Of a stretch of 64,000 bases of DNA, positions 43,901 to 63,962 are shown piece by piece. This stretch comes from Tachypleus tridentatus (taxonomy: Eukaryota; Arthropoda; Merostomata; Xiphosura; Limulidae): assembly GCF_004210375.1 (NCBI RefSeq), contig NC_134834.1, positions 150,321,009-150,385,008 on the forward strand. Direction: 5' to 3'. A program made the translations under genes and the position numbers. Within the stretch, counting starts at the first letter, position 1, and each line of letters opens with the position of its first letter. Under the pieces are notes generated by a model. The model did no database searches. It was not told the origin of the DNA and saw only the letters and a list, made by a program, of their open reading frames with translations.

Positions 43901-44270
43901 GTAGTACTGTCTAATATTCTAGGACTACAAACTTGCGTAAACCTTACAAATATCAACTCCATCTTGTGTTAATATTCTTAGATTACAGATTTAAGTAAAC
44001 TTTACGAATATAAACTCCATCTAGTGGTAGTATTAAATGGTTGCCGACTTTTGCGTAAACTTTACGAATATAAACTCCATCTAGTGGTAGTATTAAATGG
44101 TTGCCGACTTTTGCGTAAACTTTACGAATATTAGTTCCATCTATTCTAGTGCCATTGTTCTAAGGCTACATATATGCGTAAACTTTACAAATATCAACTC
44201 CATTTAGTGGTATTATTTTAAGACTACATATATGCGTAAACTTTACGAACATCGGCTCCATTTGTAATAT
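43900..44270. repeat. Tandem repeat of about 60 bp
   Basis: Units GCGTAAACTTTACGAATATA AACTCCATCTAGTGGTAG; one unit is duplicated exactly around 44000-44120. Six copies. Confidence 0.88.
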
Positions 44271-45090
44271 TTGCCCTGAAATACAAAATACTTACAGTGC
44301 GTCGATTTTTTCTCTCATATTTATAAGATCAAAAAATTTAATTAATCCATGACAAACCACTACCTTGGAATATTCTTTCTGGAATAAAAATAGCCAGAGC
44401 GACTTTAAAATCGCATGTGCAATGTAGTATTTTATACACGTAATATAGTTGTAAATACATTTCCTTCGCAACTAATAAAGTGAACTAAGTGAGAAGTCGT
44501 AGAAGTATTCACTCTACGGTGGCCGGACATGTATTCTCCTATTCATGAAACTTGGTCTCGTTGGGTACTTTCGTACTTTGGGCTCTACTCCTAAGACGTA
44601 TCTTCTCTGAAGAAACTTCTAGAATTGAACACTCTTTTCACACGTGTTTGATTCAGCTCTTCAACGTGGAGTAACAGGGAATCTAATACCTTCCAGAATG
44701 TTCCACATAATAAATTATCGTTTCAAGTCTACCTTTTACATGCTACTTTTCAACAACCTTCAACAATATGCTTATGTAGTAACTTAGAAATTTCGTGTTA
44801 ATCTTCTGGATCGGAATTTTGGTAATTAATTTTTTCACACTTTACACATTTTAATTAAAATAAGAAAGCAAAATATCACGCTTTCCAGCCACCAGAATAC
44901 TCACTTCTTTACATTGAAGTATCCTACACGAAAATGAGCTAAATAATTTAGTATCTCTAAAGTTAGGGCTATCTCTCAAGGTATTCTGCTTCTCTGTAAT
45001 AGAACTATGTATACAAAGTTTTCTTAGCTTATTAAAACTGTTTTTGCGGAAAAGTAAGTCAAACAGGTGTTTTTTCAATATTAATAAAGT
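44271..45090. other. No gene seen
   Basis: No repeat or exon recognised; sequence is moderately AT-rich. Confidence 0.4.
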
Positions 45091-45097
45091 ACTGGGA

Positions 45098-45315
45098 AGT
45101 TTAACCCTAAATGCAAGATCTGATCCCACAAAAGAGATAAGTTTAATCCTAAACGTAAGATCTGATCCCACAAAACAGAGAAATTTAACCCTAAACGTAA
45201 AATCTGATCCTGTAAAACAGAAAAGTTTAACCTTAAACGTAAGATTTGATCTTGTAAAACAGAGAAGTTTAACCCTAAACGTAAAATCTGATCCCACAAA
45301 ACAGATAAGTTTAAA
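45098..45315. repeat. 42-bp minisatellite, about 5 copies
   Basis: Unit AAGTTTAACCCTAAACGTAA GATCTGATCCCACAAAACAG AG. Being a multiple of three, it leaves frames open on both strands (SLTLNVRSDPTKQ on plus, LRLGLNFSVLQDQI on minus). Lies just beyond the Kv-beta 3' end. Confidence 0.92.
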
Positions 45316-45440
45316 ATAACAGCCTCAAGGCACACCTTCTTACACATCTGAAACTAAACCACCAGAAAATAAGATAAAAATTCAAGTCCAACAGAAAGTT
45401 TCGTGTATAAGAAGTTTTTAGTACCTTCTAAACAGTTAGT

Positions 45441-45446
45441 TTTATT
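45441..45446 (-). terminator. Candidate polyadenylation signal for Kv-beta
   Basis: AATAAA on the minus strand about 175 bases past the TAA that ends the extension. No transcript data; weak single-hexamer evidence. Confidence 0.35.
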
Positions 45447-45620
45447 AAGGTGTTGCTTCTGTCTCTAAGGTTTTACTTGCTATCGTAGCTGGAAAGTTGT
45501 CTGTATAACTACAGATCTCTAATATTGGAATCGTTCTTTGCGTTATAAAATTCTCAGGCTGTTTCAAAGAGTAAGTTATGTCATCCTAGTTTATGTTTCA
45601 CGCGAGGTTAATTTGTTAAC

Positions 45621-45806
45621 TTATTGGATGGAGCAGGCATTCAGAATTCTCTGTACCACCCCCCGAGTCTCCAGGTGATGGAAGCTTGGAGCTTCCCCAG
45701 AGTCACTCCTCCTTCTGTTAGCCTCTTCTCCACTAAGTGAGTCCTCCTCCAACAAATCATGCCTGGGTCCCCTGCCCCCACAGGAGTCCCGAGGCATCCC
45801 TAGTCA
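45621..45806 (-). other. Hk: Putative stop-codon readthrough extension of Kv-beta (60 sense codons)
   Basis: After the TGA at 45806-45804 the same frame stays open for 60 codons to TAA at 45623-45621. The stop context is TGA CTA G, the motif known to allow efficient readthrough in metazoan mRNAs. The extension is plainly richer in G and C than the introns and 3' flank, as coding DNA is here. The predicted tail holds an acidic stretch (DLLEEDSLSGEE), a basic Ser stretch (RRRSDSGE) and ends RILNACSIQ. I recognise no domain in it. It could instead be 3' UTR or an exon joined by splicing around the stop. Confidence 0.55.
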
Positions 45807-45890
45807 CCTGGTCAGAGGTTGTCGTATTGGCTTGTTGTCTAGAATTTTTTCAACCTCATTCACGATATTCGTGTTCAGTCGTGGCACCAC
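45804..45890 (-). CDS. Hk: Kv-beta exon 14 (C-terminus and TGA stop)
   Basis: 87 bp, [20 protein letters not shown] then PIRQPLTR and TGA (338-365). It matches the IDSILGNKP and ERILENKPVRPP C-termini of mammals and flies. Acceptor TGCTAG. The stop is TGA CTA G; AG/GTGACT overlapping it also looks like a weak splice donor. Confidence 0.93.
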   Translation of the reverse strand: MVPRLNTNIVNEVEKILDNKPIRQPLTR

Positions 45891-48800
45891 CTAGCAGGGA
45901 AACATGGTTAATATAAGAAGTTTCACTGATGTAAGATTAATTCTGTAAATGACAACAAATACTGAGTGTCCGTTAATTAGTACGGCATCTGGGGTGTTAA
46001 TCTCTGGTTTAAGTGGGGTTATGTGAGAGACATTGTTGATAAAACACTATGAAAGTACCTTTAACAGTTTTACACTTTATTTAGCAGATTTAAAGAAATC
46101 TTAACACACATATAAACCTAACATTCCTACAGTCGTTTATCCTGCGAACGTTTCTTTCTTTCCGATTTTGACTAACCCCATATCGTACTTCGTAACAGAA
46201 TAATAGTATCTAGAAATCACTGAGTGGTTCTTTAATTTCTAATGATTCGATTACTGTCAAAACCTTTTTCCTTTTTTCTATCGATCGGGTTGATCATTAA
46301 GGAAAACTGTGTTTATCTTTCTATTCATCAAGTTAACTGGTACCCAAATCATGTTTATCTTTCTATTCATCAAGTTAACTGGTCACCGAACGATGTAACC
46401 ATGAAGTTAGAGCATGAATATTTCTAAACTTTTGCATTATTTGTACGTTACCCTTACCTGTAATGCGTGCAAGTGGTCAAGGAGCTGTTCAACAGTCGAG
46501 GCTCCGACAAGAACACAATGGACACAATCGTTTTTAAGGCACCATGCTGGAAAACACGTCAAGCAATTATTAATATAAATATATATCTATGAATTTAAAA
46601 CAATATATAAAAATAATATTAATTAAATGTGATACGAGAAATACGATGACACATTTCAGATGCCTTTTCTGGTTCACAGATACAAACAGTACTCGACGTT
46701 TCGCGTTTTGAATATCGCCTGCTTCAAAGTATTTTATTATTCGAACAAAAAGCAAGAAACAATTGGGTTTTATACCTGAAGCGAAACAAAGATGTCGATA
46801 AAATATCAATACTTCGATACTTCGTCGTAAAGAAAATATAAATCTCTAAATAAATCAAATCGTTTCAGTGTTACTTTCGAATGTTCACCAGCATTATCAT
46901 AAAAATATCAATTTTAAATAATAAAGACATTTCGGAATAAATTACAGTATATTGGAGGAAGGGCGAATTTATTAAGAAATGGGATCAGACGTTTCGGTGA
47001 CATTTTGAGACACTTAATATCATTTTGAATTCGCAACTGAATAAGAAAACCTCATAACGTTTCGGTGTTGAATTCTCTGAATCTGTGTCATTGTAAACAA
47101 TGCAGAAACCTGTAAAAGTTTGGCAGGTGAGAGCAATTTGTCATTCATTTAAATAAATTAGCGACTATCAAACGTTCTGCCATAACAATAGTCACGTTTT
47201 TATATAAACTATAGAAAGTTTGAGACCCTTACGTAACAGAAGAAATATACTGTTATATATAAAAAAAAAAAAATGTAACGTAGAAACACTTTGTGTGACA
47301 AACCTTGTTATAGAATAAGAGAATAATAATAACAAAGGGAAAGGTTCCAATTTATGAGAAAAAAATCGAAATTTATTTTGACCTGGAAATGTGTTAAGTA
47401 AGATAGTGTTAAATAGCTTTGACTGGCATGTTTAACACCACTGTTATGTGTGAATGTGTTAAGACAGTGTTAGATAGCCTTGACTGGCATGATGAACGTC
47501 ACTGTTATGTGTTAATGTGTTACATAAGATGTTAAAGTTTACAGAAATTAGATCAAGCAATTAATAATACACAGGAATTAATCCAGAAAAATTCTACACC
47601 ATTTAAAATCACTGAAATAAATTTGAAATATTTAATGTTAATACTCTTGTCGTTATAAAGTTAAAAGTTAATTTTAAAAGATGGCGAGACCAAATTCACA
47701 AACCGTACCTATAAATAACTGGTTTAACGTACAGCTTAACTTCTCCACGATGAAAGAAAGTTGTTGAATCTTAGACTGATGTTTAGGACTGCGATTGTCG
47801 TCCATAACAGCTTTGTCAGTAGTCCCTGAATAGTGCTGTTCACGAGAAACAAAATTGATTGCCATCTAGCGGTAACTAAAATAGGTAAAGTTTCACGTAT
47901 TGAATTACGTTTATATTTTATTGTTTTTATTGTTGTAATGTTTTGACTATATAAACCTAAGTATCTTAGCAATAGACATAACATATACATACAAATAATC
48001 CTTACTCTAACAAAGTAATAAAACAGAAAGAAAAATATACCATTGAAAGTGTGAGTTGTGAAGGTAACTATAGTAACAGAAGCATAAACTATGTTGATAC
48101 TTCATTCTTAACACAGAATAACAGCACGTTAAACCGATATTCACCCTGATGGAGCCCCTGGAAAGAAGATTAATTCCTTCATCAAACTTTCCACTCAATC
48201 CAAAAGCCTGAGGGGACCACGTCATAGTTCCAACCCCTAGTGGTAAACAAATTTACATATCTAAATCATGTGAAAGTTTAACTCTGTCACTGACACATAT
48301 ATAGACAAATAATATATGTTTTGATATACTATAAAAAGAAAAATATACGTTTTAATGCGTCATTACTTAGCTAAAAGTTGACACTTGGGAAAGTTCAATA
48401 ATTATGTTATTTATTTTCATAGTGGTACAAAATTAGAAACACAAATACTGTTAATATTATGTCATACTAAGTGTATTAGGGTTATACAGTCATGTGAAGA
48501 AATTAGGACACCCTATGAAAGTCTGTGTATTTTTGTAACATTTTTGGATATATAGATATTTAATCTCAATTTTAACAATACTGATAGATTATAGGAATAT
48601 AACTAAACAATTAAAACTGAAGAAAATACTTTTCAAGATCTTCTGTAAATGTCATGCTACAAAAATGCATATTCGAACTGAGAAAAAGTTAGGGCACCCT
48701 ACCCACTAATAGCTAGTGTTACCCCCTTTAGCTGAAATAACTGCAGTGAGACGCTTTTTGTAGCCATCTACCAGTCTCTGACATCGGTCTCAAGGAAGTT

Positions 48801-51800
48801 TGCCCCACTCCTCAATGCAGAATTCTTTCAGCTGTGAGATGTTTCAGGGGTTTCTTGCATGTACAGCTCGTTTCAAGTCACCCCACAGCATCTCAATGGG
48901 ATTAAGATCTGGGCTTTGATTCGGCCATTCCAAGACTCTCCATTTCTTAGTTTTCAGCCAGTCCTTGATGGATTTACTGGTATGTTTTGGGTCATTGTCG
49001 TGTTGCAGAGTCCAGTTCCGCTTCAGTTTTAATTTTCTTACAGATGGTCTCACATGATCCTCGAGCACCCTCTAATACACAGTAGAATTCATGGTGGATT
49101 CTATGATTGTGAGCTGTCCAGGTCCTGCTGCAGCAAAGCAGCCCCAAACCATGACACTTACACCTCCATGTTTCACAGTTGGTATGAAATTAAACTATTT
49201 GGACTCATCTGTCCAAAGAACACTATCCCAGAAGTCCTGGTCTTTGTCTACATTCTGGCAAACTTCAGTCTGGCCTTGATGTTTCTCTTAGAGAGCAAAG
49301 GTTTCCTCCTTGCACACCTCCCATGCAAGTTACACTTGTGCAGTCTCTTTCTGTTTGTAGAGGCATGCACTTTCACATCAACAGTAGCCAGAGCCTGCTG
49401 TAGGTCCCGTGATGACACTTTAGGGTTTTTGGAGACCTATTTTAGCATCTTATTGTCTGCTCTCGGGATGAACTTGGACGACCAGACCTGGGCATGTTGG
49501 AAGTTGTTTTGAAAGCCCTCCACTTGTTGACTATTTTCCGGACATTGGAATGGCTGATTTCAAACTCTTTTGAGATCTTTTTAAATCCCTTACCAGACTC
49601 ATAAGCTGCTACAATTTTCTTTCTGAAGGCCTCAGACAGCTCTTTTGCTCTCATCATGGTGCTCACTCTCACTTCAGCAGTCAGGAACACACCAAACTAA
49701 ATGTCTGAGGTTTAAATAGGGCAAGCCTCATTCACAATGCTGAGTAATGATCTTCTAATCACATGCACCTGGTGTTATACACCTGTGTTTGAGTTGAGCC
49801 ATTTTATGTGGGTATAAATGTCTGGGTGTCCTAACTTTTTCCTCAGTTAGAAAATGCATTTTTATCGAATTACAATTTACAGAAGATCTTGAAAAGTCTT
49901 TTCTTCAGTTTTAATTGTTCAGTTATATCCCTATAATCTCTCAGTGTTGTTAAAATTGAGGTTAAATATCTATATATCCAGAAACGTTACAAAAATACAC
50001 AGGCTTTCATAGGGTGTCCTAATTTTTTCACATGGTTGTATAAGTGATTATTATGTGGTATTAAATGTATATGGTTATACAAACGATTATTATGTTATAT
50101 TAGATCTATTGGTTATACAGGAAATTACGAGGGATATTAAGTCTATTTGGGTATATAGAGGATTATTTTGTAACATTAGCACTATTAGGGGGCCTTACCA
50201 CGTCGTCGGAGTCCATATTGGCACGTATAGCCAAAACTATACATCTTGACAACAGTCCTGCGTGGTAATTTTTTTTTTTTAAATACTCCATCTTTAGGCC
50301 GTCATTTCCTAAACCCACAACTCTTCTCTGTGTGCTTTCCCTAATCAATGCAGTGCACGAGGAAGACGGTTTCACATGAGTCGTTTCAACAATGTACTCG
50401 CTGAAAAATTAATAGGTGCTACGACTGCGTTTTGACTGGCTTGTCTTCATGTGAAATAACGTTTCATTTTCCAGCTGGTTGGGTTATACAATAGCAGATC
50501 ACTAGATACGACTGTAAATCTTATTTCAATAAACCCGTAACTTGTTGGTATTGTTTCCAACAAATATAATTTTTGATTATGTTGGATAACGTTGTTTGGG
50601 GCACGAGGACGGCTTTTCAAACTGAGCTTTATAGTTCTCAGCTGTTACAAAATGCCGCATTTTACTTACCATGTTTGGAGTACGAATTTTCCAAGTATTT
50701 TTCTAGATGGTCCTGGTACCCTATGTTGATGCATATTTCTTTGTTTACCAACAATATAAAATACATGATATATCTCCATCTTGGAAAGTCTAAATTTCCG
50801 ATCTGAACACATCACTATGAACTGAGTGTATGAATTTCTGGTGTCAGAAAGTGTTGTTAAATACCTTTCCATAAAGTTTTGGTTCTAAATCATGTAATTA
50901 CACGCGACTTTATACCGGATGTAGTTGTCACGTAGTTTCCTAACTTGTATATTGATAATCATTTTAAAATAACGCACCCAATAGTATGTCTCAGGACAGT
51001 GCCATTGAGGAGAACACATATGTGCTACTAACAGTAATCTAGAAGGGTACACTATATGTTACCTTTGCAATCACATCAATGAAGCCCGGCATAGTCAGGT
51101 GGTTAAGGCACTCGACTTGTAATCCGAGGGTTGCAGGTTTGAACTCCCGTCACACCAAACATGCTCGCCCTTTCAGCCGTAGGGGCGTTATAATGTCCGG
51201 TCAATCCCACTATTTGTTGGAAAAAGAGTAGGCCAAGCTGCCTTCCCTTTAGTCTTACAGGGCTCTTACAGTCATACATATATTATAACATGAGGTGTTA
51301 TAATATGACAGCTAATCCTGGTAATCAATTAGGTAGCCTAAGAGATGGAGATAGGTGCTGTTGACTAGCTGCCTTTTGTCAGATATATAACTTTTAAATT
51401 AGGAACACTAGCACAGATGTCCTTCATGTAGATATGCATTAAATTCAAAACAAAACAAAAATGCAGTGACCTGTAGAGGTGGGGTCATGTATGCGCGCAT
51501 ACTGGTACTAAAAAGAATAGAGAGGAGGATATTTGAGCCCACGGCTGTGAAGGAATTCCGAATTAACTGTTAGTGTAAGTAAAAGTGAAGACGACGAAAA
51601 CCAATAAAAGTGTTAGAAGGTGAAAAAATATAAAAACAGAACACTGGACACAGTCTTGTTTACCATAACACTATCCTATCATATTTCCTACATATTCCAT
51701 TAAATCATTTTCTTTAACCACGTGGCAAGGTTACGCAAGCAGTACTAACCAATCTTATGGAAGAGTTCCGGATGACATAGCTCCACCTTCTCTCTCTGGA

Positions 51801-54800
51801 ACATGTGATACTCTGTCTGTTCCATGATTGGAGGAATCTGATTAAATTGTCGAGCGACACTGTACGCTTCCTGTTGGTAGAGAGAGAGGACCATGACAAT
51901 ACTATTGGTAAGTGGTTATAAACATTCTGCTTTAGGATAAAGAATCACGACAGTACTGTTGTTCATTAGTTAAGGTTAACACCCAGAAACTCATATTATA
52001 AACATTCTGCTTTAGATTAAAGAATCACAATACTACAGTTGTTCATTAGTTAAGGTTAACACCCAGAAACACATATAAACATTCTGCTTTAGGATAAAGA
52101 ATCACGACAGTACAGTTGTTCATTAGTTAAGGTTAACACCCAGAAACACATATAAACATTCTGCTTTTAAAGAATACAGTACAGTTGTTCATTAGTTAAG
52201 GTTAACACCCAGAAACACATATTATAAACATTCTGCTTTAGATTAAAGAATCACAATAGTACAGTTGTTCATTAGTTAAGGTTAACACCCAGAAACTCAT
52301 ATTATAAACATTCTGCTTTAGGATAAAGAATCACGACAATATTGTACGTTCATGCTTCTCTGTAATCGAGTCAGAGATTGGAATGTTAATTGTATTCTTG
52401 CTTTATTCTGTTGTGAGGTTCGCTATAGCCCACTCCACAGCAAAGTTATTAACTCTCATACGACTCAGTTCATTATATGTTGTTTACTACCAGTTTGGTC
52501 CAAACATTGTATTATATATTATTTACTATCAGTGTGGTTGACACATAGTATTATACATTATTTACTACCAGTATGATCCACATATTGTATCATATCTTGT
52601 TTAGTACCAGTATAGTACGCACATTGTATCATATCGTGTTTAGTACCAGTGTAGTACCCACATTGTATCATATATTGTTTACTACCAGTGTGGTCTACAT
52701 ATTGTATTATATATTATTTACTACCAGTGTGGTGCACATAATGTTTACAAGAATCGTGCCAATAATTACTGGGTTTAATTTTATTAATGCTGACAATACT
52801 TCTCTCGAACCTGTCTGTGTGTGAGAGATATGTTAATACAACAACAACAGGAAGTAACACATACGGAGTCACGTACATAATTGGCTTAGCAAAATATATT
52901 TTTGAAGTGGGATGGTCCATTCGTGTTACACTGGTAATTCTAAATTTAAAGTATAAACGTGGACTACTTAATTTTTTTTATTATAACTTTAAATATCGTA
53001 ATTGTGTGTTGTTTATTCAACAGAGCTGCTAACAAATGCACAACAATGAGATTTGTGACATTGTTAAGCTTACAGCTTCCGTGAAGACTTAACATCATTG
53101 TTTTATGATATATTGTTAACAGATTTAGTAGATAGATATACGTATACAACATAATTTTTCGACAAACGTAAGTACGCAACACTGCAATTTCTAGGAGAAA
53201 TATTTATTGATTTTTACCATGATCTCCATGGCTGTCCACCGTGATGTTCCCCAGTACAACGCCATTCCCTGATTCACACAGTACGTGCACGCTCGGACGA
53301 CTTCTGAAAGTAAAAAGTTTCAGTTAAATATAAGTTCCATGAGGCACACAAGGAGTTTTAGTTTCTGAACTTCTATGTAAAACTGTAACGTTTCCGGAAA
53401 TCATAAAGATGAGTCGATTAATTAAAGAATGAAAGGACTATTTGCCCATGTACAAGTAACGGTTAGGCTTACCTATGTTTTCTAAACAGTTGTATTCCTT
53501 AATCTGAAATATTAATATACAGGTGTATTTGTTTAATTTAAATCAAAAATCAAGTGTTTATTTTATTTTTGCAAACTCAGTTCCTCATTATTATATATTT
53601 AATGTATATAATCTTTATTACTCAGATCTTAAGAGAGAGTCAGAGGCCATCGAATATTGTATTACTTGCGTTTCTTATTTTATAATTTCTTTCAAGTTTA
53701 TCGTGTCTGTAAGACGACATACAGAATATTAACTGATTTTTTCTTTATGATTTCTTTTTTTCAAGTTCAGAGACATAGATGCGTGTTTCATTTGCACTAC
53801 ACACGTTTCTACGAAACAGAGAAAAATAATGGTATGTATTGTTCCCGTACTGACAGCTTTATGTATCTACATAAATATTACGCTTGCGTTTGTAAGTCCG
53901 GAACTTTTTTCAAATTTCTAAATCAAACACTACAAATCTAATGTCGTTAGAAAGGCCTTTGTCTGAGAAGCTAGATTTATATTTAGGCCTTTCAATTGAG
54001 AATCACCTTACTTGTCTTTTGTTTAGTTAAACTTCTTAATTCAAAGAGAATGGTGTATGGTAGGATCACGTGGCCACTGCTATGGGCTTTCTGGACTTAT
54101 TATCTAGGTCTAAACAACGCATGCGCAGTTCGTTCAAACCACATGCTTATCAGACGTTTCTGCATAGTAAGCTAAATTTGCTTTCATTACAGCTTTACGT
54201 TTACTTTACCTTGCAATAATTCAGCTTCGGTTCGTTTCATATACTATTATAAACACATTTTAGCTGCTATTTCCTTTAGTATTGATTTTATTATTTGTTG
54301 TTGTGTCAGTTTTTTTTATTTCGACTCGTAAAACTTATCAGACGCTGAACGTTCGTAACTGTTTCATACTCCGTACATTACTATTAATTGCAATTTTATG
54401 TTTTATTGTTTATTTTACGTGAAGTTTTATTAAATAAACTTACGGCTACGTGAGATAGTTTACGTCGACGTACGTATTTTCATATAGACCTGGATTTATT
54501 GATCTAACACATAATGTCTGCGAGAAAGCGTAGCTCAAATAGTGTGCGTGATAAAGTTAGAACAATGAAAACTCAAGGGGAGGGATTCGTTTTTTTTTTT
54601 TTTAATTTCGTGCAAAGCTAGCCGTCCCTAATTTAGCAGCGTAAGACTAGAGAGAAGGCAGCTGGTCATCACCACCCATCGCCAACTCTTGGGCTACAAG
54701 GGGAGGGAAAGAAAACTATCAGACATGTCACGGTTACTTTATTTTACTCACACTACAGATGTTTCCGTGAAACAGACTGAATTAATGTACATACTGACAG

Positions 54801-57800
54801 GCAGTATATCCTGTCGTATCTCACTATGGAACTACTCTAAGTAAAAGCATTAAACGTGACATTTACGGTTAAAATTTAAAGCTTAATCACCAAAATAACA
54901 TAGTTCAACATAGGGTTTACTGATATTTTTTAATGTTGGGTAGAGGTCAACTATGCATTTAATTTCCATTCAATAAAGGAAGCTGTGTCTGGACACTAGT
55001 TCGTAAAATATAAGACCTATTTATTCACCTTCCTTGGTGGCTGAATCATATGGAGTTTAGTAATCAGCCTATTTATTTCCCATTGTGAATAAGGCTTCTG
55101 CTCTAGAAACAAATCTATCTTCATTCCGTTTAGAATAAAAAAAGTTTATTTTAAGGACTGATCTAAGTACCATTTCTTGACAGGAATCAATTGTCATACC
55201 AGACTATTATCTTTGTTGGCTAGTGTAACCATCTTCAATGTAACACATGAATCATTTCTATTGGCTGCAGCACCTTTCTTCCACGTGATACATATAGTAA
55301 GTATTTTTGGCTAATGAGTTTAGCTTACATTAGGCCAGTTTTATTTGCCATATATTCACCTTTTAAGGTGCACACCGGTCGTTTCTACTGGTCAGTATGC
55401 CTACCTTTCATGGGACATTTGGAGTTGGTGAGTGTACTCACCTTCTATAGGACACACGGATCGTTTATATTGGCTGGTGTACCTACCTTCCATGGGGCAC
55501 ATGGGGTCAGCTTTGTTTATCAGAAGAATATCCACGTAGTTCAACTGGAGTCTTTCTAGAGAAGCGTGAAGTCCTGTGGTCAAATAAACACAGATGTTTT
55601 TGATATACTGAAGTATATATTGACAAAAGTTCACACCACCTTTTGGGTAAAAGTGAAAACAGTCAATCGTGAAAAAGAAAAAACGTTTAAATTTTTTTAA
55701 TGGCAGGCCATGCATCACTTGAGCCAAGGTGCGGAACATAATGCTGCCAAAGGGAAAAATCTGTCAATAAAAAATCAATACAGTTAAAACAGCCTCAGGC
55801 ATTAGTGTCTATCGCCACCTAGTGGGGTTTATAAAAAATTTGATAATGGCTTAAAAAACTTAACTTACACTGTGACATATATATATATATATATCAGAAA
55901 ATAAAACTGTTAGTTCGTCATATATTCCTCTTTCACATTCACATATATAAATACATATTACAAAATTATTGTTTAGTTTAATTAGCTTTTCTGAGTCTCA
56001 CATATTTATTGCTAAAGTATTATTGGTGACTAGCCCTATAAATTGTTATTAAAATATGGAGATAACTGTGATAACTTACAGCGAAATAAATTCATAGATA
56101 AATCAGAGAATGTCTGGAGATATGAAAAGTGCCATTCCAAAACAAAACAATGAATGCAGGCTCAAACAACAAAATAGAGTTGTAAAGTGAATGGGGATAT
56201 AGAGGAAAATATTAGCAGAAACCTGCTGTCGGAAATCAATATTGTAGTCTTTAATAATACAGTTCAATTAAACTGACAAGACCTACAGGAATAATTTAAA
56301 TCAGTAAATGATATTACTTGATTTTTACAAATATAAAAACATTTTGTATCATAGCGAGACGTAATTATAAAATCCTGTTTCACAGTTATTTAGTCTATAT
56401 GCGTGGTGTTCAGAAGTAATTTAAAGAACTACGTTATTACAGTTTTCTCGTCCAAACGTAGCACAAGCTAGTCTGGAAAACGCGCATGAAACTGACTTCG
56501 TTTCTGTCTTATCGCGTACATTCTTCACAGTTAAATTACTTATCATATGGAAACAACGTAACCCACTTAGTCGAAGGATATTGATTTGTACGGTTGGGTA
56601 TAATGGTGCTTAGTGTGTGTAGCGAACGTTAAGGTTCTTAAAAATTTGTAGCTCATGGTTTATTTAAATGCAGGGCTGCACAATGGGCCACCTGCACTGT
56701 GCCCGCTGCGTGGATAAAACCTTAGATCTTAAGCATGTGAGGTAGACCGATGGAACTTATTCAAACCATGATGTTTCCTATTTCTATACTACTTCATTTC
56801 TTATTATTTTATTACTGTGTCTCTTCATCCCCTAGCTTGGCCGTCATGCCCTCTTAATGAGATGTTTCAAACTACTGTGCACTGCCTAAAAGTCAACGTC
56901 TGTTAAACAAGATCCTGCTGCACAAGGGGGGAGCAAACAGGGGACCGGTCCCCCCATAACTCTATGCATATCAACTCATCATTTTGGTGAGTGTTTTGCT
57001 GTAAAACATGATATGTGTGTTGATATGGTTCATATACTTACTAGTGTCAAGCTATTTAATGACAAACGTTATTTTATTTTCAGTATATTACACGCTTCTA
57101 ACCCCATTTATTTGAGATTTGATTGAGTATCCAATTTTTAGGATACTTACTAAGCCTTTCTGGAATCTGGAGTTGCCACACATATTACAGATACTATACA
57201 TTAATCCATTACATCAAACAAAGAAACCGGATATCATTTCTAATAATAACTTCTCTCTTGTGTTTCTCTCTTTGAGTTCGGTTTACAAATATTCAAATAA
57301 AAATAACATTGGAACACTCTACATTCACATTAAGATAACTCGATGACGTCATGCGAACCACAACCATATCATGCCGAGAACCAGTTAATCAGAGCATGTC
57401 AAGTGCATGCATACATTATTTAAACATTCGTCCGCCAGAGGGTCAAAGCATGCGATATTTAAAGGAAATACGAGATGAAAACTTTTCAACAGGGTGAAGT
57501 CACATGACTTGCCTTCAATTATCTGTTTCCTTGACATCCCCTTTTCAATGTCTGATCTAACAACACCAAAAACAAAACAAAAAACACAATCAGAAGGTGA
57601 AACACTCGAACGACAGGAATTCTCACAAAGAACAAAGAAACACGAAAACGTCCTTAAAGGACTTACCTTCCAGTCCAAAACAACTTCGTAGCAATGACGT
57701 AACTGGACCGTCTGGAATAAATAGAATAAAAGTTACTTGTTTATTTGTCTAAAATCTAGAGAGCTATCTGCACTAGCTGTCCCTAATTTTAAAATCATAA

Positions 57801-60800
57801 ATTAGAGTGAAGGCAGCTAGTCATCACCACTCGCCGCCACCTCTTAGTGCCATTGACCATTACATTATTATACCTCCATAACTAAAAGGCGAGCGTGTTT
57901 GAGGATTGGGCTCCAACCCGAAACCCTCAGACTGCGGGTTGAGGTTCCTAGCTACCAGGGCATGCAAAAAAATGTGTAAGGTAAATACACTCACTTAGAA
58001 GAAATTTCCAACAACAACAAAAATAATTCTGCTTGTTTTTTTTCGGTCACAACGTCTTAGACTGTGCTCTTACGGTTGTGTCGCTGTGTACGTCGTGTTT
58101 AAAAGCAAAAACGCTTAAATCTACTTTAGGTTTTTTTTCTGTGGAATATTTTTATTAACTGTATCTAGTCAATTGTTGTTTTTTGACAAGATCATGATAT
58201 TAAGAACGATAATGATTTCACTTTTGTGTGAAAGTACCGAATATTTTATGGAAAAAGAAGTCATCTGTGCCCTCACTATTCCATAAAAGGGCATTTGACA
58301 CTTAAACAGGACTGATTGGTTTGGTTTGTTTTAAATTTCGCGCAAAACTACACAAGGGCTACCTATTAGCCGTCCCTAATTTAGCAGTGTAAGACTAGAG
58401 GGAAGACAGCTAGTCATCACTACCCACTGCCAACTCTTGGGCTACCCTTTTACCAACGAATAGTAGGATCAAACGTAACATTATAACGCCCCCACGGATA
58501 AAAGGGTGAGCATGTTTGGTGAGAGGGGAGGATTCGAGCCCGCGACTCTCGGATTACAAGTGGATAGCCTTAACCACCTGGCTATGCCGGGCCAAACAGG
58601 AGTGATCAACTTCATACCTAGGACTGTGCAGATGTTCCCAACACTAAGATATTGTCTTAAGCACTTATTCAATTTAGTCATTAGCAAAGCATTCTTGTAA
58701 TTTAAAATTGTAATTCTATAACACCATTTCGTTACCTTTATGAGGAAGGGTTTGTTTTTTTTCTTAAATCTTCTCAATAAAATTCTGATATGAAAAGTCA
58801 GGGTTTTGGAAACCAAGCGGACAGAAAGCTACAATTGTCTCCTCTATGACAAAATGTTAGGTATTCTTGTCCTCGTGGACAGGTAAACCAGTTAATAAAG
58901 TAATCTCATCTTCAGAGAAAAGTGACAACATAGCGTGTAACATACCTCCAACCTTTCTTCTTTAGAATTTTCCCAAGCATTAGCTCTGCCCTGAAAAAGA
59001 AAGACAAACAGATTTGCACTGAGGGAGAAACAAAACTGAGACCAAACTACGACTTTAATTTGCAGTTTTTATTTCCCATAACTACGAAAGGTCGTAGAAA
59101 GAACAAACAGGTTGTTTCAACAGGATTAATCCTAACATTAGCTTTTGCATAAAAATCAAAATACGCTTCGAACCATAATCGATAAATGCATATCTGAAAT
59201 ACATCATGGTGAATTTGAAAATACCAAGACGGTTAAAATAGTTGTTAAGAAATATAAATATTCATAAAGCTTTATGATCGTCAACGTCAGCAGAAGCGTA
59301 AATAACAACGAAAAAAACTTCATTTTTGTCAAAAACACGCTACAGCTGTTACATTAAGCCTAAATAATCAGAATTAAAGAATTCGTATGCCCTTCTTGTT
59401 TCGAAATATTTTTGTTATAAAAATAATAAAATAGAAAAATATTCCTTATATCAACCCAAATTACTCGGTCAATTAACCACAAATAATATCTTATCAGCGT
59501 TTGGCAAAAACGTACTTTCCACCACCATAGGCATCTGCTGTGTCAAAAATGTTGATTCCACTCTCGTAAGCTGCAGTCAGAATATCCTCAGCCCTCTGTT
59601 GAGACAACATAGAAATATTTTATATAAATTTATAATTAACCTGACAAGTTAAAAGTTCCAAAAAAGAAAAGAAAGATCTGAGTTACAAAACTTTGAAGTT
59701 TGAACAATTCCCTAATAATAAACTTATAGTATTCATTTAAAAGACGGCGAGGCCTACCTCTTCAGAAATCTGTGTTCCAAAATGTACCCATGTGCCTGAA
59801 AACATCAATAAATTCATTTTATATTTTGTAAAGTGGTTTACCAAACTTTGATAACAAAATCAGCTTCATAACTAAAGAGCATTTTCTCTCCAAACTATTT
59901 AGTAATTCGTTATTTCATTAGAAACATTATAAATGCTTATGTAATTTTATTCTACAAAAAAAAGGAAGATAAAACACATATAGGACAAACAATCAGATCT
60001 TACCAAGGCCGATACAAGAAATTCTCAAACCAGACTTTCCAAGGTTTCTAGGGTGAAAAAAAAAAATAGCGACAGATTAAAAATTGTAATTATTAGAGTG
60101 ATTAAATGACAATTTGTGCTATTATATAATTTATTAACTAAATAATTACGTGTTATACGTTTCATTATTTCTCTGTTCTTCAGGTCACCCGTAGCCATAT
60201 CTTAAGACACAAGTTTCTATTTGATAAGTCTGTTTGTATCTGAATATTTACAACAACCTTATGTGCCACTACATGTGAAAGGTTAAAGACAAATGTCTCA
60301 AACTCTTGCGACGTCACAGAGTCTGGTGTCCACCTGTCTTTCATCAGGACTTGAGAGAATGTTGTAAAAATTACTTCCACACTTGCTTCCAGTATGTGGT
60401 GGTCCCATTTTTACAAATATTGGTTTTGACAATACCTTCTGAATGTCTTGGTACTTTAACTGATACAACGTTTCACTGTATACACACATATATATATGTA
60501 TAGTTAGGGCTTCAATATTCTTAGGTTGATTTTTTTTTTTGTCGTTGTGAACTCTAAAACGTCTTTTTGTTTTTTTCTTTCTGACCATGAAACTCAGGCT
60601 ATTTCTGAATTATCACTATGATTTCACGAAACATTTAACACAACATCAGTCTGTGCAATGATGGTAAGGATAAGCATGACAATCGAAACACAATGCCACG
60701 TAGATTTCAAACCAAACTAATGTTTCCTAACAACACCTACCGATAACGCATTCCCGTAGCCCAATGGACAGAGGGTTGTCGACTTGGAGGTCGAGTAGTG

Positions 60801-60853
60801 ATTGGGCTATCGCTGGACATCGTGCTTTCGTCCAAGCATTCTAGACTGGCCAT
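45804..60853 (-). CDS. Hk: Voltage-gated K+ channel beta subunit (Kv-beta / Hyperkinetic), complete, 14 coding exons
   Basis: Cytoplasmic beta subunit of Shaker-type potassium channels, built on an aldo-keto-reductase (AKR) fold that binds NADPH. Exons, minus strand, in order: 60853-60741, 60047-60004, 59795-59758, 59595-59516, 58990-58946, 57711-57667, 57556-57513, 55573-55487, 53303-53218, 51870-51750, 48236-48145, 47835-47709, 46546-46458, 45890-45804. All junctions keep phase, giving 365 residues, the usual family length (mammalian Kv-beta2 is 367). Seen in the translation: [12 protein letters not shown] at the core start; AKR tetrad D83, Y88, K116, N156; GTSRW at 184-188; Q212; W241. These positions lie two residues before the Kv-beta2 numbers. 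[13 protein letters not shown] (158-170) resembles Drosophila Hyperkinetic, hence the symbol; KCNAB is the vertebrate name. The start at 60853 has a good context (ACCAATGG); an in-frame ATG at 60820 is the alternative. Alternative first exons outside the window cannot be excluded. The TGA stop is followed by a long open extension, listed separately. Confidence 0.95.
46290..46390. repeat. Short direct duplication
   Basis: TGTTTATCTTTCTATTCATC AAGTTAACTGGT occurs twice, in the Kv-beta intron between exons 13 and 14. Confidence 0.8.
46458..46546 (-). CDS. Hk: Kv-beta exon 13
   Basis: 89 bp, [20 protein letters not shown] then [10 protein letters not shown] (308-337), matching [22 protein letters not shown]. 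Acceptor TTCCAG, donor CAG/GTAAGG. Confidence 0.94.
47390..47530. repeat. Direct duplication of about 65 bp in a Kv-beta intron
   Basis: AGTGTTA.ATAGC.TTGACTGG CATG, CACTGTTATGTGT.AATGTG occurs twice between exons 12 and 13. Confidence 0.75.
47709..47835 (-). CDS. Hk: Kv-beta exon 12 (divergent loop plus helix)
   Basis: 127 bp, residues 266-307. The first 20 residues ([20 protein letters not shown]) replace a loop that differs between mammals and insects; then [20 protein letters not shown] matches the [20 protein letters not shown] helix. Acceptor GAACAG, donor ATAG/GTACGG. The exon start relies on phase and on the only suitable AG. Confidence 0.85.
48145..48236 (-). CDS. Hk: Kv-beta exon 11
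   Basis: 92 bp, residues 235-265, [20 protein letters not shown] then [16 protein letters not shown] with W241 is the nicotinamide-stacking tryptophan segment. Acceptor CACTAG, donor AGG/GTGAAT. Confidence 0.93.
48485..50040 (-). mobile_element. Tc1-like DNA transposon with long terminal repeats of IR/DR type, dead
   Basis: 1556 bp between TA dinucleotides (48483-48484 and 50041-50042). Terminal inverted repeats of about 218 bp: 48485-48702 and 49823-50040, beginning TACAGTCATGTGAAG and TACAACCATGTGAAA. Each holds two direct repeats, an outer AATTAGGACACCCTATG and an inner AGTTAGG.CACCC, the IR/DR layout. It lies in the Kv-beta intron between exons 10 and 11 with its transposase in the same direction as the gene. 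Confidence 0.95.
48706..49657 (-). pseudogene. Tc1 transposase, DD34E, broken by stops and a frameshift
   Basis: Starts [20 protein letters not shown] at 49657 with a helix-turn-helix region ([12 protein letters not shown], then PRSGRPSS). The frame breaks after this and again near the first catalytic Asp (VLWTDESK). Further stops lie before and after the last open part (48844-49068), which holds [11 protein letters not shown] and [11 protein letters not shown]. Exactly 34 residues separate the second Asp from Glu, so it is DD34E. It would have cut and pasted the element but cannot be made now. Confidence 0.92.
50043..51080. other. Intronic, no feature recognised
   Basis: Part of the Kv-beta intron between exons 10 and 11. 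The frame at 50163-50375 (minus) is slightly GC-rich but has no family features. Confidence 0.4.
51084..51462 (+). repeat. tRNA-derived SINE, one rearranged copy or two fragments
   Basis: Head and first body part at 51084-51270 (GCCCGGCATAGTCAGGTGGT; B box GCAGGTTTGAACTCCCG), then a second diverged body and tail at 51295-51462 (AAATTAGGAACACTAGCACA, AAATTCAAAACAAAACAAAA). Confidence 0.75.
51750..51870 (-). CDS. Hk: Kv-beta exon 10
   Basis: 121 bp, residues 195-234, with [20 protein letters not shown] then [10 protein letters not shown] and PELFHKI. Q212 and the [11 protein letters not shown] stretch are near-invariant in Kv-beta. Acceptor CAACAG, donor TTG/GTTAGT. A dead Tc1 element lies in the following intron. 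Confidence 0.95.
51905..52345. repeat. Tandem repeat of about 75 bp, six copies
   Basis: Units CATTCTGCTTTAGGATAAAG AATCACGACAGTACAGTTGT TCATTAGTTAAGGTTAACAC. Begins just upstream of Kv-beta exon 10 in its intron. Confidence 0.92.
52460..52750. repeat. Tandem repeat of about 40 bp
   Basis: Units ACCAGTGTGGT.CACATATTG TATCATATATTGTTTACT, about seven copies; plus-strand frames at 52352-52824 come from it. Confidence 0.88.
53218..53303 (-). CDS. Hk: Kv-beta exon 9
   Basis: 86 bp, [20 protein letters not shown] then RWTAMEIM (167-194). The GTSRW segment is a family hallmark near the cofactor. Acceptor TTTCAG, donor ATG/GTAAAA. Confidence 0.94.
53304..54513. other. Kv-beta intron 8 part, nothing recognised
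   Basis: Short frames at 53523-53941 are AT-rich and without family features. Confidence 0.4.
54586..54696 (-). repeat. tRNA-derived SINE, truncated, with target-site duplication
   Basis: Tail TTTTTTTTTTTAATTTCGTG and body to CAACTCTTGGGCTA. Perfect 12-bp duplication CAAGGGGAGGGA at 54574-54585 and 54697-54708. Confidence 0.93.
55190..55500. repeat. Small tandem array containing copies of a splice donor
   Basis: On the minus strand, AAG/GTAGGTACAC, AAG/GTGAGTACAC, AAG/GTAGGCATAC and AAG/GTGAATATAT follow each other with spacings of 45, 37 and 45 bp, each with CCAGCCAATATAAACGATCC-like sequence after it. The first is the donor of Kv-beta exon 8. Looser units continue to about 55190. Confidence 0.75.
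55487..55573 (-). CDS. Hk: Kv-beta exon 8 (catalytic Asn)
   Basis: 87 bp, residues 137-166, [20 protein letters not shown] then ADPMCPME. N156 is the tetrad asparagine (FANRPDP in mammals). The donor GAAG/GTAGGT lies inside a small tandem array that repeats donor-like sites further into the intron. Confidence 0.94.
55860..57350. other. Kv-beta intron, nothing recognised
   Basis: AT-rich with a TATATATA run at 55880. A 12-bp palindrome GGGACCGGTCCC lies at about 56940. Confidence 0.4.
57511..57512 (-). promoter_or_regulatory. Non-canonical GC splice donor
   Basis: AAG/GCAAGT at the end of Kv-beta exon 7. Apart from the C it matches the donor consensus, as is typical of GC-AG introns. No usable GT donor in the right phase lies nearby. 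Confidence 0.8.
57513..57556 (-). CDS. Hk: Kv-beta exon 7, followed by a GC-AG intron
   Basis: 44 bp, [14 protein letters not shown] (123-136), matching the ERGLSRKHIIEG helix. The donor is AAG/GCAAGT, so the next intron starts with GC instead of GT. Joining it to the acceptor at 55574 restores the expected [13 protein letters not shown] in frame. Confidence 0.91.
57667..57711 (-). CDS. Hk: Kv-beta exon 6 (catalytic Lys)
   Basis: 45 bp, [14 protein letters not shown] (108-121). K116 is the tetrad lysine. Acceptor TTCCAG, donor AAG/GTAAGT. Confidence 0.93.
57755..57965 (-). repeat. tRNA-derived SINE, degraded
   Basis: AAGGCAGCTAGTCATCACCA, TAAAAGGCGAGCGTGTTTGA and CTACCAGGGCATGC keep the family order. 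Confidence 0.8.
58317..58593 (-). repeat. tRNA-derived SINE, full length, with target-site duplication
   Basis: Complete copy ending GGCTATGCCGGGCC. AAACAGGACTGAT at 58304-58316 and AAACAGGAGTGAT at 58594-58606 (one mismatch). Confidence 0.94.
58607..58940. other. Kv-beta intron, nothing recognised
   Basis: The frame at 58481-58816 runs into the SINE and is accidental. Confidence 0.4.
58946..58990 (-). CDS. Hk: Kv-beta exon 5
   Basis: 45 bp, [14 protein letters not shown] (93-106), matching the AEVVLGNIIKKKGW helix of the family. Acceptor TTTCAG, donor GAG/GTATGT. Confidence 0.92.
59516..59595 (-). CDS. Hk: Kv-beta exon 4 (catalytic Asp and Tyr)
   Basis: 80 bp, residues 66-92. Contains [15 protein letters not shown] with D83 and Y88 of the catalytic tetrad. 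Acceptor CAACAG, donor AAA/GTACGT. Confidence 0.94.
59758..59795 (-). CDS. Hk: Kv-beta exon 3
   Basis: 38 bp, [12 protein letters not shown] (54-65), matching the TWVTFGGQITDE segment that contacts NADPH in the family. Acceptor TTTTCAG, donor GAG/GTAGGC. Confidence 0.92.
60004..60047 (-). CDS. Hk: Kv-beta exon 2
   Basis: 44 bp, residues 38-53, [15 protein letters not shown], the first strand of the AKR barrel. Acceptor CCCTAG after a T-rich tract, donor TTG/GTAAGA. Confidence 0.93.
60741..60853 (-). CDS. Hk: Kv-beta exon 1 (start codon, N-terminus)
   Basis: Encodes 37 residues plus two bases of Arg38 and ends MRYR across the junction; the family has a similar GMKYR before NLGKSG. The donor is CG/GTAGGT. 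The N-terminal 34 residues are rich in Ser, Thr and Pro and I see no family match; variable N-termini are normal for Kv-beta. It lacks the long basic ball peptide of inactivating mammalian isoforms. The frame stays open upstream of the chosen ATG, so the 5' limit of the exon is unknown. Confidence 0.85.
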
Positions 60854-61480: not shown

Positions 61481-61839
61481 GCCAAATAGCTATATGAATG
61501 TACAACAGACAGTACTATTGTATTTATATACATTATCTTTATATAGGTTTTTGTTTTTAGTTTTGAAACTTTGAAATATCTTTCACTTCAGTTAGTTCAG
61601 TATATATATATTTTACTGAAACACCAAAAGTTGTACCACCTTTTATTCTTGAACAAAAACATTGAGCTATACGAAACAGCTCCAACCAAAAACCTTTACG
61701 AGTGTTTCTATTTTTAAAACAGAAAGATTTTCTATATTTAACCACTGCTGTCAGTAAATAAAAGAGAAAATGATGACAATCAAACTAGGTGGGAGTTTAT
61801 AAATAATGTTGTCTTCCTACACAATATCTGATGGTATAA

Positions 61840-63962
61840 CACTGGGAGAGTTATCTCCTAGGTTAACAACACTGGGAGAATATAATTTCTAGGTTACAAA
61901 CAGCGGGAGAGGTATCTCCCAGGTTAGCAACAGCTGAAGAGATATCTCCCAGATTAACAAGAGCGGGAGAGATATCTTCCAGGTTAACGACAGCGGGAGA
62001 GATATCTCCAAGATTAACGACACTGGGAGAGATACCTCCCAGGTTACCAACAGTGGGAGAGATATCTTCCAGGTTAACAACAGTGGGAGAGACATCTTCT
62101 AAGTGAACAACAGTGGAAGAGATATATTCCAGGTTAACAATAGTGGGAGAGATATATGCCAGGTTAACAACAGTGGGGGTGATATCTTCCAGGTTAAAAA
62201 AAGCTGAAAAGATATATCACAGGTTAACAAGAGCGGGAGAGATATCTCCAAGATTAACGACACTGGGAGAGATACCTCCCAGGTTAACAACAGTGGGAGA
62301 GACATCTTCTAAGTGAACAACAGTGGAAGAGATATATTCCAGGTTAACAACAGTGGGGGTGATATCTTCCAGGTTAAAAAAAGCTGAAAAGATATATCCC
62401 AGGTTAACAAGAGCGGGAGAGATATCTCCAAGATTAACGACACTGGGAGAGATACCTCCCAGGTTAACAACAGTGGGACAGATATATCTAAAGTCAATAA
62501 CAGTGGGAGTGATATCTTCCAGATTAACAACAGTGGGAGTGATATCTTTCAGGTTAGCAACAGTGGGAGAGATATCTTCCAGGTTAACGACAGTGGGAGT
62601 GATATCTTCTAGGTTAACGACAGTGTGAGAGATACTTCCAGGTTAACAACAGTGGGAGAGACATCTTCCAAGTGAACAACAGTGGGAGAGATACCTTCCA
62701 GGTGAACAACAGTGGAAGAGATATATGCCAGGTTAACAACAGTGGGGGTGATATCTTCCAGGTTAACAACAGTGGGAGAGATATCTTCCAGGTTAACGAC
62801 AGTGGGAGTGATATCTTCTAGGTTAACGACAGTGGGAGTGATATCTTCTAGGTTAACGACAGTGGGAGAGACATCTTCCAGGTCAACAACACTGGGAGAG
62901 ATATCTGCCAGGTTAACAACAGGGGGGTGATATCTTCCAGGTTAACAACAGCTGAAGAGATATCTCCCAGGTTAACAAGAGTGGGAGAGATATCTTCCAG
63001 GTTAACGACAGCGGGAAAGATACTTCCCAGGTTAACAACAGTGGGAGAGATATATCTAAAGTCAATAACAGTGAGAGTGATATCTTCCAGGTTAACGACA
63101 GCGGGAAAGATACTTCCCAGGTTAACAACAGTGGGAGAGATATATCTAAAGTCAATAACAGTGAGAGTGATATCTTCCAGATTAACAACAGTGGGAGTGA
63201 TATCTTTCAGGTTAACAACAGTGGGAGTGATATCTTCTAGGTTAACGACAGTGGGAGAGATACTTCAAGGTTAACAACAGAGGGAGAGATACTTCCCAGG
63301 TTAACAACAGTGGGAGAGATATATCTAAAGTCAATAACAGTGAGAGTGATATCTTCCAGGTTAACAACACTGGGAGAGATATCTTCCAGATTAACAACAG
63401 TGGGAGTGATATCTTCTAGGTTAACGACAGTGGGAGAGATACTTCAAGGTTAACAACAGAGGGAGAGACATCTTCCAGGTTAACAACAGGGGGTGATATC
63501 TTCCAGGTTAACAACAGCTGAAGAGATATCTCCCAGGTTAACAAGAGCGGGAGAGATACCTCCCAGGTTAACAACAGTGGGAGAGATATAACTAAAGTCA
63601 ATAACAGTGGGAGTGATATCTTCCAGGTTAACAACAGTGGGAGAGATATATTCCAGGTTAACAACAGTGGGAGAGATATCTTCCAGGTTAACAACAGTGG
63701 GAGACGTATTTCCAGGTTAACAACAGTGGGAAAGATATCTTCCAGGTTAACAACACTGGGAGAGATATCTTCCAGGTCAACAACAGTGGGAGAGACATCT
63801 TCCAGGTGAACAACAGTGGGAGAGATATCTACCAGGTTAACAACAGTGGGAGACGTATTTCCAGATTAACAACAGTGGGAAAGATATCTTCCAGGTTAGC
63901 AACATTGGGAAAGATATCTTCCAGGGCAACAACAGTGGGAGAGATATCTTCCAAGTTAGCCC
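61840..63962. repeat. 30-bp minisatellite, about 70 copies
   Basis: Unit AGGTTAACAACAGTGGGAGA GATATCTTCC. The period is a multiple of three and both strands stay open for long runs (RLTTVGEISS decapeptides on plus, LLLTWEISLP on minus). Larger 210-bp (7-unit) duplications are visible, e.g. 62101 and 62311. It ends just before the window edge. Confidence 0.94.

Follow-up and report, generated by a model that had tools for sequence, protein, structure and literature searches.

Does the Kv-beta (Hyperkinetic) gene of the horseshoe crab Tachypleus tridentatus end at its annotated TGA, or do some ribosomes pass this stop and add a C-terminal tail? The question arose from a 64,000-nucleotide stretch of the genome, called the window here, for which the original prediction, made from the letters alone, described a readthrough motif at the end of the gene and a coding-like tract behind it. 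We consider in turn the gene, its paralogues, the evolution of the tract, the RNA structure beside the stop and the end of the predicted tail.

The gene occupies the minus strand of the window, within which 14 coding exons were assembled (Table 1), with AG acceptors throughout and GT donors apart from one GC donor. With splice sites taken from NCBI model P0001, the core from MASLE onwards comprises 365 aa. The database entry for P0001 bears the name voltage-gated potassium channel subunit beta-2-like of Tachypleus tridentatus. This model begins at an ATG beyond the edge of the window, omits exon 5 (15 residues) and stops at the TGA. The identification of the gene as Kv-beta in the original prediction is borne out by the aldo-keto reductase match PF00248 in P0001 (Pfam, E = 3.7e-45), by Kv-beta2 as the best PDB match of the joined exon pieces (E = 6.3e-55) and by a 25-row tree in which the window protein clusters with chelicerate Kv-beta proteins. 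Judged by these matches, the gene product is a Kv-beta/AKR6 member. Pieces of a Tc1-like (Sleeping Beauty type) transposase lie within a Kv-beta intron (48847-49696, minus strand), spread over more than one frame, and a 30-bp unit in ~71 tandem copies lies upstream of the window's first coding exon (61838-63958).

Table 1. Features of the Kv-beta gene and of its stop region (positions within the window).
Feature	Position	Strand	Remarks
Exon 1, from MASLE	60741..60853	minus	NCBI model has a further upstream exon beyond the window
Exons 2-12	47709..60047	minus	AG acceptors, GT donors and one GC donor; matched in paralogous genes
Exons 2-6	60047-60004, 59795-59758, 59595-59516, 58990-58946, 57711-57667	minus	
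Exons 7-9	57556-57513 (GC donor), 55573-55487, 53303-53218	minus	
Exons 10-12	51870-51750, 48236-48145, 47835-47709	minus	exon 12 acceptor per NCBI P0001
Exon 13	46458..46546	minus	splice sites and match in paralogous genes
Last exon to annotated stop (VVPRL...QPLTR)	45807..45890	minus	NCBI P0001 ends here
TGA stop, proposed readthrough site	45804..45806	minus	within 16-nt block TGACCAGGTGACTAGG, identical in three paralogues
CTAG context after the stop	45800..45803	minus	UGA-CUAG tested in reporters (PMC4132726)
Putative readthrough extension, 60 codons, LGMPRDSCGGRGPRHDLLEEDSLSGEEANRRRSDSGEAPSFHHLETRGVVQRILNACSIQ	45624..45803	minus	proposed from frame and paralogue conservation
3' stem-loop, 15 pairs	45760..45796	minus	consensus starts at the 8th nucleotide after UGA; compensatory changes
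Invariant C-terminus LNACSIQ	45624..45644	minus	last four residues fit a CaaX box
Second stop, TAA	45621..45623	minus	end of paralogue similarity
AATAAA	45441..45446	minus	sequence match; offset 360 from TGA, the sole one in the 1500 nt examined in C10

The last exon starts at 45890, preceded by TTTCCCTGCTAG, and ends in CTG ACC AGG. The described gene end, AGG TGA CTA GGG followed by 60 sense codons up to a TAA, was confirmed on the minus strand (45806-45621). The long form would have 426 residues, as had been proposed: 365 aa of core, one residue at the stop and 60 of tail. The tract was also correctly described as richer in GC than its surroundings, with 0.54 for 45600-45799 vs 0.25-0.42 in 200-base windows of 44000-48000 not touching 45500-45999. 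The same tract is overlapped, on its two strands, by seven further frames, 30-71 codons in length; the openness of the tail frame is therefore weak evidence alone, and we rejected it as an argument by itself.

More can be learned from the relatives of this gene in the same genome. A whole-genome DNA search with 45600-45892 returned the window itself and four other places, and the count of five Kv-beta last exons used below comes from the DNA and tail-protein searches. The window gene is designated C10, and the paralogues, on C8 and C6, are designated C8, C6a, C6b and C6c. In four of the five last exons (C10, C8, C6a and C6b), TGA-CTAG is followed by a tail that stays open for 60-61 codons and finishes in LNACSIQ-stop; the fifth, C6c, reads TAA-CTAA, with a frame that runs for 21 codons before it closes. 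The C8 exon and tail, used as a protein query, led to the same five places: the four tail-bearing ones contain a single TGA each, and C6c contains a single TAA. Two extra matches of this search (E 0.53 and 0.59) are not credible. The exons of C8, C6b and C6c could be joined into genes, with AG at the acceptors and either GT or GC at the donors. The recurrence of TGA-CTAG, the open frame and the terminal CSIQ at four of five last exons places the tail beyond chance.

C6a is a partial duplicate (C6:164870001-164910000), in which exons 6-14 were found and exons 1-5 were not, within the 40 kb examined. Its tail is identical to that of C6b, about 457 kb away, and the four tail-bearing places thus represent three independent sequences. 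C6c (C6:8849343-8849435) has lost both tail and TGA; a similar hairpin is still present, and an NCBI isoform of this gene runs past the stop site into a downstream exon. The GC-AG intron after exon 7 (GCAAGT) is present in C10, C8, C6a, C6b and C6c, kept through the duplications. The tree, which covers 25 proteins, unites C10, C8 and C6b in one clade (100/100), within which Limulus orthologues group with C6b (100/100) and with C8 (93/90); the partner of C6c is a third Limulus protein (99/99). The protein database contains the Limulus orthologues of C8 and C6b as P0002 and P0004. These groupings indicate that the duplications are older than the Tachypleus-Limulus split.

The polyadenylation side of the locus can be described briefly. 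The single AATAAA at offset 360 in C10 suggests that the tail may be inside the mRNA. In C8 the first AATAAA stands at offset 1511, and none was found within the about 1.5-1.7 kb examined in C6b and C6c. A 42-bp unit in about five copies (45096-45314) lies beyond the AATAAA that follows the tail in the window.

The comparison at the DNA level covers three independent paralogue sequences from one genome, whose tails are 67-69% identical (about 32% nucleotide divergence). The original prediction had named frame-disrupting indels and a lack of synonymous bias in related species as evidence against it. Among these paralogues of a single genome, the sole indel is one of 3 nt, which leaves the frame intact, and the in-frame omega (dN/dS) of the tail is 0.50 (p = 0.01; star-tree codon model, 60 codons). 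Differences fall mostly at third codon positions (26 of 60 in each pair, vs 17-20 at first and 12-15 at second positions). The other two sense frames, both interrupted by stops, gave omega values of 0.99 (p = 0.98) and 2.0 (p = 0.02). For the antisense frames the values were 1.1, 0.50 (p = 0.012) and 2.8 (p = 0.001); stops interrupt the second of these frames in every copy. Under the same model, omega for 327 core codons was 0.09. Pair by pair, the in-frame tail values were 0.46 (p = 0.039), 0.64 (p = 0.24) and 0.43 (p = 0.024).

The signal is unevenly distributed along the tail. Without the first 15 codons, omega was 0.57 (p = 0.08); protein-level selection was not significant for the middle (codons 16-53, omega 0.76, p = 0.45) or for the last 20 codons taken alone (omega 0.61, p = 0.31). 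From these segment values, the coding signal appears to lie mainly at the two ends of the tail. No variation occurs among the last seven residues (P = 3e-4, with 21 of the 60 tail residues invariant overall), and their codons differ only by synonymous third-position changes, in four of the seven. Conservation concentrated near the C-terminus is also described for the mammalian OPRK1, OPRL1 and AQP4 extensions (PMC4132726).

The three tail pairs scored 180, 179 and 189 vs shuffled means of 62-65, each exceeding all of 300 shuffles. For the 3' flanks past the second stop and the ends of intron 13, no pair stood clearly above its shuffled versions (42 to 191 of 300 as high). When neutral substitution was simulated with indels ignored, all three frames stayed open in about 10% of 4000 runs. 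A possible remnant of the tail in C6c is not claimed: it beats 300 of 300 shuffles against C10, but 47 of 300 against C8 and 167 of 300 against C6b score as high. Peptides predicted from the tail include HDLLEEDSLSGEEANR and SDSGEAPSFHHLETR for C10, and QDLLEEDIPGGGAGER and SNSIEDPQLHR for C8.

These comparisons bear on the alternative of chance, a random UGA-CUAG in front of a tract that is open by accident. Few stops are expected in GC-rich DNA, and the other open frames of the tract fit such an accident; however, motif, frame, hairpin and CaaX end recur in three paralogues at the divergence given above, between flanks without detectable similarity, and chance can be given almost no weight.

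The region just 3' of the stop folds into a stem-loop, which the original prediction did not include. In the consensus of the three paralogues, 95.6% of 45 cells are paired, vs at most 57.8% when the partners are slid; of the 15 pairs, four carry changes at both partners, and two are disrupted in one of the sequences. Pairing, both-side changes and covariation score were each reached in 10 of 500 shuffles, and the count of further pair types was not unusual (109 of 500 as high). The alifold consensus energy was -22.2 vs -5.7 +/- 2.8 with synonymous codons redrawn (0 of 2000 as low), a control that breaks the relatedness of the three sequences and so somewhat overstates the hairpin signal. Folded singly, C10 and C8 gave z values of -3.1 and -2.9, with a stem starting at the 7th nucleotide in C10 and outer pairs that differ from the consensus in C8. 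C6b alone (z = -1.0) does not stand out from its shuffled versions (32 of 200 as low), and its minimum-energy fold is the inner stem only. The similar hairpin of C6c (z = -3.2) has its pairs shifted by one base in a hand alignment; as it is kept despite the TAA and the lost frame, the hairpin may have another role. Three Rfam matches (E 3.8-4.9) lie far below the gathering scores and were discarded.

Such a role could suggest that the whole tract is an untranslated RNA element of the 3' UTR, for example a protein-binding hairpin, with the open frame as a by-product. The hairpin is indeed the strongest signal, its counterpart survives in C6c without a coding tail, and the tail middle lacks significant protein-level selection. 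However, the hairpin reaches no further than the first third of the tract, conservation at the far end is that of amino acids (LNACSIQ) and continues to the second stop, and the presence of UGA-CUAG where readthrough would require it would be a coincidence. We regard this explanation as very unlikely. RNA editing of UGA into UGG, with the tail made by ordinary translation, is extremely unlikely. Editing would produce an identical protein and leave selection on the tail unchanged, and a stable hairpin near the UGA could suit it; the UGA, however, lies 7 nt outside the consensus hairpin, and CUAG is invariant here although editing is not known to require it.

The arrangement agrees with a described class of signals. 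Type II readthrough is described as UGA-CUA with a stem-loop about 8 nt further downstream (PMC3542737). Of the first element, given as UGA followed by CUA or CGG, the form TGA-CTAG is present in C10, C8, C6a and C6b; the second, an extended stem-loop about 8 nt 3' of the stop, is found in the consensus fold. The viral members (alphaviruses, tobraviruses and coltiviruses, with UGA-CGG/CUA and an extended 3' stem-loop) thus share UGA-CUA and a stem-loop ~8 nt 3' with the Kv-beta site (PMC3542737), whereas here the signal would sit in a nuclear animal gene and add a short C-terminal tail instead of a replicase. UGA CUA G had been put forward as an animal readthrough context on the strength of OPRK1, AQP4 and MAPK10, and the same seven nucleotides are indeed those treated in PMC4132726. 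The mammalian OPRL1, OPRK1, AQP4 and MAPK10 share UGA-CUAG with the horseshoe crab genes, and AGG is the last codon before the stop in MAPK10 too (PMC4132726). They differ in that 12 nt past the stop appeared enough for maximal readthrough in that work, whereas a hairpin is also conserved here. By itself, UGA-CUA supports 1.5% readthrough in human cells; for OPRL1, the signals around its stop included, the figure is about 31% (PMC4132726).

Motif and hairpin position matching type II, the coding signal of the tail and the invariant CSIQ together lead us to the readthrough reading. We consider it highly probable that the Kv-beta stop site undergoes readthrough, and the best reading of the site is a putative type II programmed stop-codon readthrough cassette: UGA-CUAG, a 7-nt spacer including CUAG, and a stem-loop. 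The interpretation originally offered is supported, in the three paralogues, by an in-frame dN/dS below 1, by similarity that ends at the second stop and by the lack of any frame-breaking indel. Its wider premise, that many arthropod genes use readthrough, stands in part: a 2016 survey describes readthrough as abundant in Pancrustacea but in none of the other species that it tested, one arachnid and one centipede among them (PMC5100048).

The same bases may also be read by the spliceosome. It had been anticipated that splicing from AG/GTGACT might remove the stop, and the paralogues lend this some substance. An NCBI isoform of C6c, P0005, runs past the homologous AG/GTAACT into sequence about 2.8 kb downstream; its residues past the last common one, TNWRPSLSEAEHNSKES, are encoded after an AG and joinable at AG/GTAACT. 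By predicted U1 pairing, the stop-site donor ranks 6th to 8th of 14 donors in four genes, and in C10, C8 and C6b it is middling (6th or 8th). Additionally, 12 of the 13 proteins with horseshoe crab, spider or tick names among P0001-P0024 end in Arg (the name of P0019 is incomplete, 'Rh'), as AG/GTRA read as an unspliced donor would give. Among all 24 of these Kv-beta proteins, Arg is terminal in 22 (not in P0005 and P0009), and the overlap of splice site and stop may be old; P0067 (name incomplete, 'De') has a different end.

On this evidence one could take AG/GTGACT for an alternative 5' splice site, the motif and hairpin for splicing controls, and the tail for a retained intron. Removal of the tail by splicing, however, leaves unexplained the invariant LNACSIQ, its synonymous-only changes, the codon-sized indel and the end of similarity at the second stop. 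Furthermore, no alternative exon like that of C6c was seen in the window downstream of C10 with an 18-aa query, which is a weak probe; the downstream sequence covered for C8 and C6b extends to about 1.7 kb. We therefore judge it unlikely that splicing accounts for the tail, even if the junction itself is used in C6c. Two other splicing schemes fail by reasoning: an 8-nt micro-intron GTGACTAG would shift the frame, and joining exon 12 to an acceptor at CTAG would cost the protein its conserved reductase end.

Alternative splicing and readthrough may coexist at the stop site. Doubtful, if possible, is the broader proposal that the ten-base site offers a three-way choice between stopping (cytosolic Kv-beta), readthrough (a CaaX-anchored tail) and splicing at AG/GTRACT (another C-terminus), in a cassette that would predate the C10/C8/C6b duplications and set the share of beta subunits held at the membrane.

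If readthrough is accepted as the preferred reading, the end of the tail suggests what it might do, a feature likewise added to the original prediction. At the four tail-bearing places, CSIQ-stop puts a Cys fourth and an aliphatic residue second from the C-terminus, which fits a CaaX box; at this base composition, a strict CaaX end arises by chance with a frequency of about 0.0013. A terminal Gln in a CaaX box favours farnesyltransferase. Given readthrough, prenylation of the long Kv-beta form is somewhat more probable than its absence. The preferred linker before the CaaX Cys is described as small or hydrophilic, flexible and about 11 residues long (PMC1175975); the linkers here, GVVQRILNA, HGLLDGLLNA and HWILHRVLNA, mix hydrophobic and polar residues and are less hydrophilic than that preference.

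Lipid control of Kv-beta has a precedent, as S-acylation of Kv-beta2.1 at C301/C311 shifts the mainly cytosolic protein to membrane domains (PMC8994742). The likeness lies in a lipid modification that brings Kv-beta to the membrane; the difference is that core cysteines are palmitoylated there, whereas the horseshoe crab tail carries a putative prenylation end encoded by readthrough. Targeting signals appended by readthrough are known as well: PTS1 on LDHB and on fungal enzymes (PMC4359377, PMC3840789 and PMC4973966 are cited for targeting-signal readthrough) and, as a prediction in a table, a farnesylation signal on Drosophila Syx17 (PMC3840789). These share with the present case a minor long form with a C-terminal address signal. 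They are unlike it in that a Kv-beta subunit would be the carrier here and the signal a CaaX-like end, which the duplicated genes have conserved.

Database and literature searches brought no counterpart. No tail homologue was among the protein matches listed (120 of 4048; none over 86% of the query), and two further searches listed one of 31 candidates, the window's own gene product, and 0 of 7 candidates, respectively; NCBI Kv-beta models end at the TGA, and absence of the tail from protein records says little. A Cys-x-(A/I/L/V/M/C)-x end or CSIQ was absent from the 120 Kv-beta search proteins examined, and Pfam gave no match in the two tails scanned. In the open-licence literature we found no published report of Kv-beta readthrough (the main text of PMC13170385 does not contain Hyperkinetic) or of readthrough joined with a CaaX end, and farnesylation was absent among the matches listed.

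We propose the following mechanism, inferring readthrough, its rate, prenylation and the effect on channels alike from the sequence. Most ribosomes would stop at the UGA and release the ordinary beta subunit, and a minor fraction would insert a near-cognate residue there and add the 60-residue tail. The CSIQ CaaX box would be the conserved working end of this tail, and the long form would probably be farnesylated and attached to the membrane. Such a lipid-anchored form would keep some of the beta subunits close to the membrane.

If this is true, programmed readthrough would extend to a chelicerate gene, Kv-beta, beyond the group in which it was found to be abundant, and the full type II layout would be present in a nuclear gene. 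C6c, without both the stop context and the tail, would provide a natural control. The tail would also have a testable function, that of a potassium-channel subunit switched between soluble and lipid-anchored forms.
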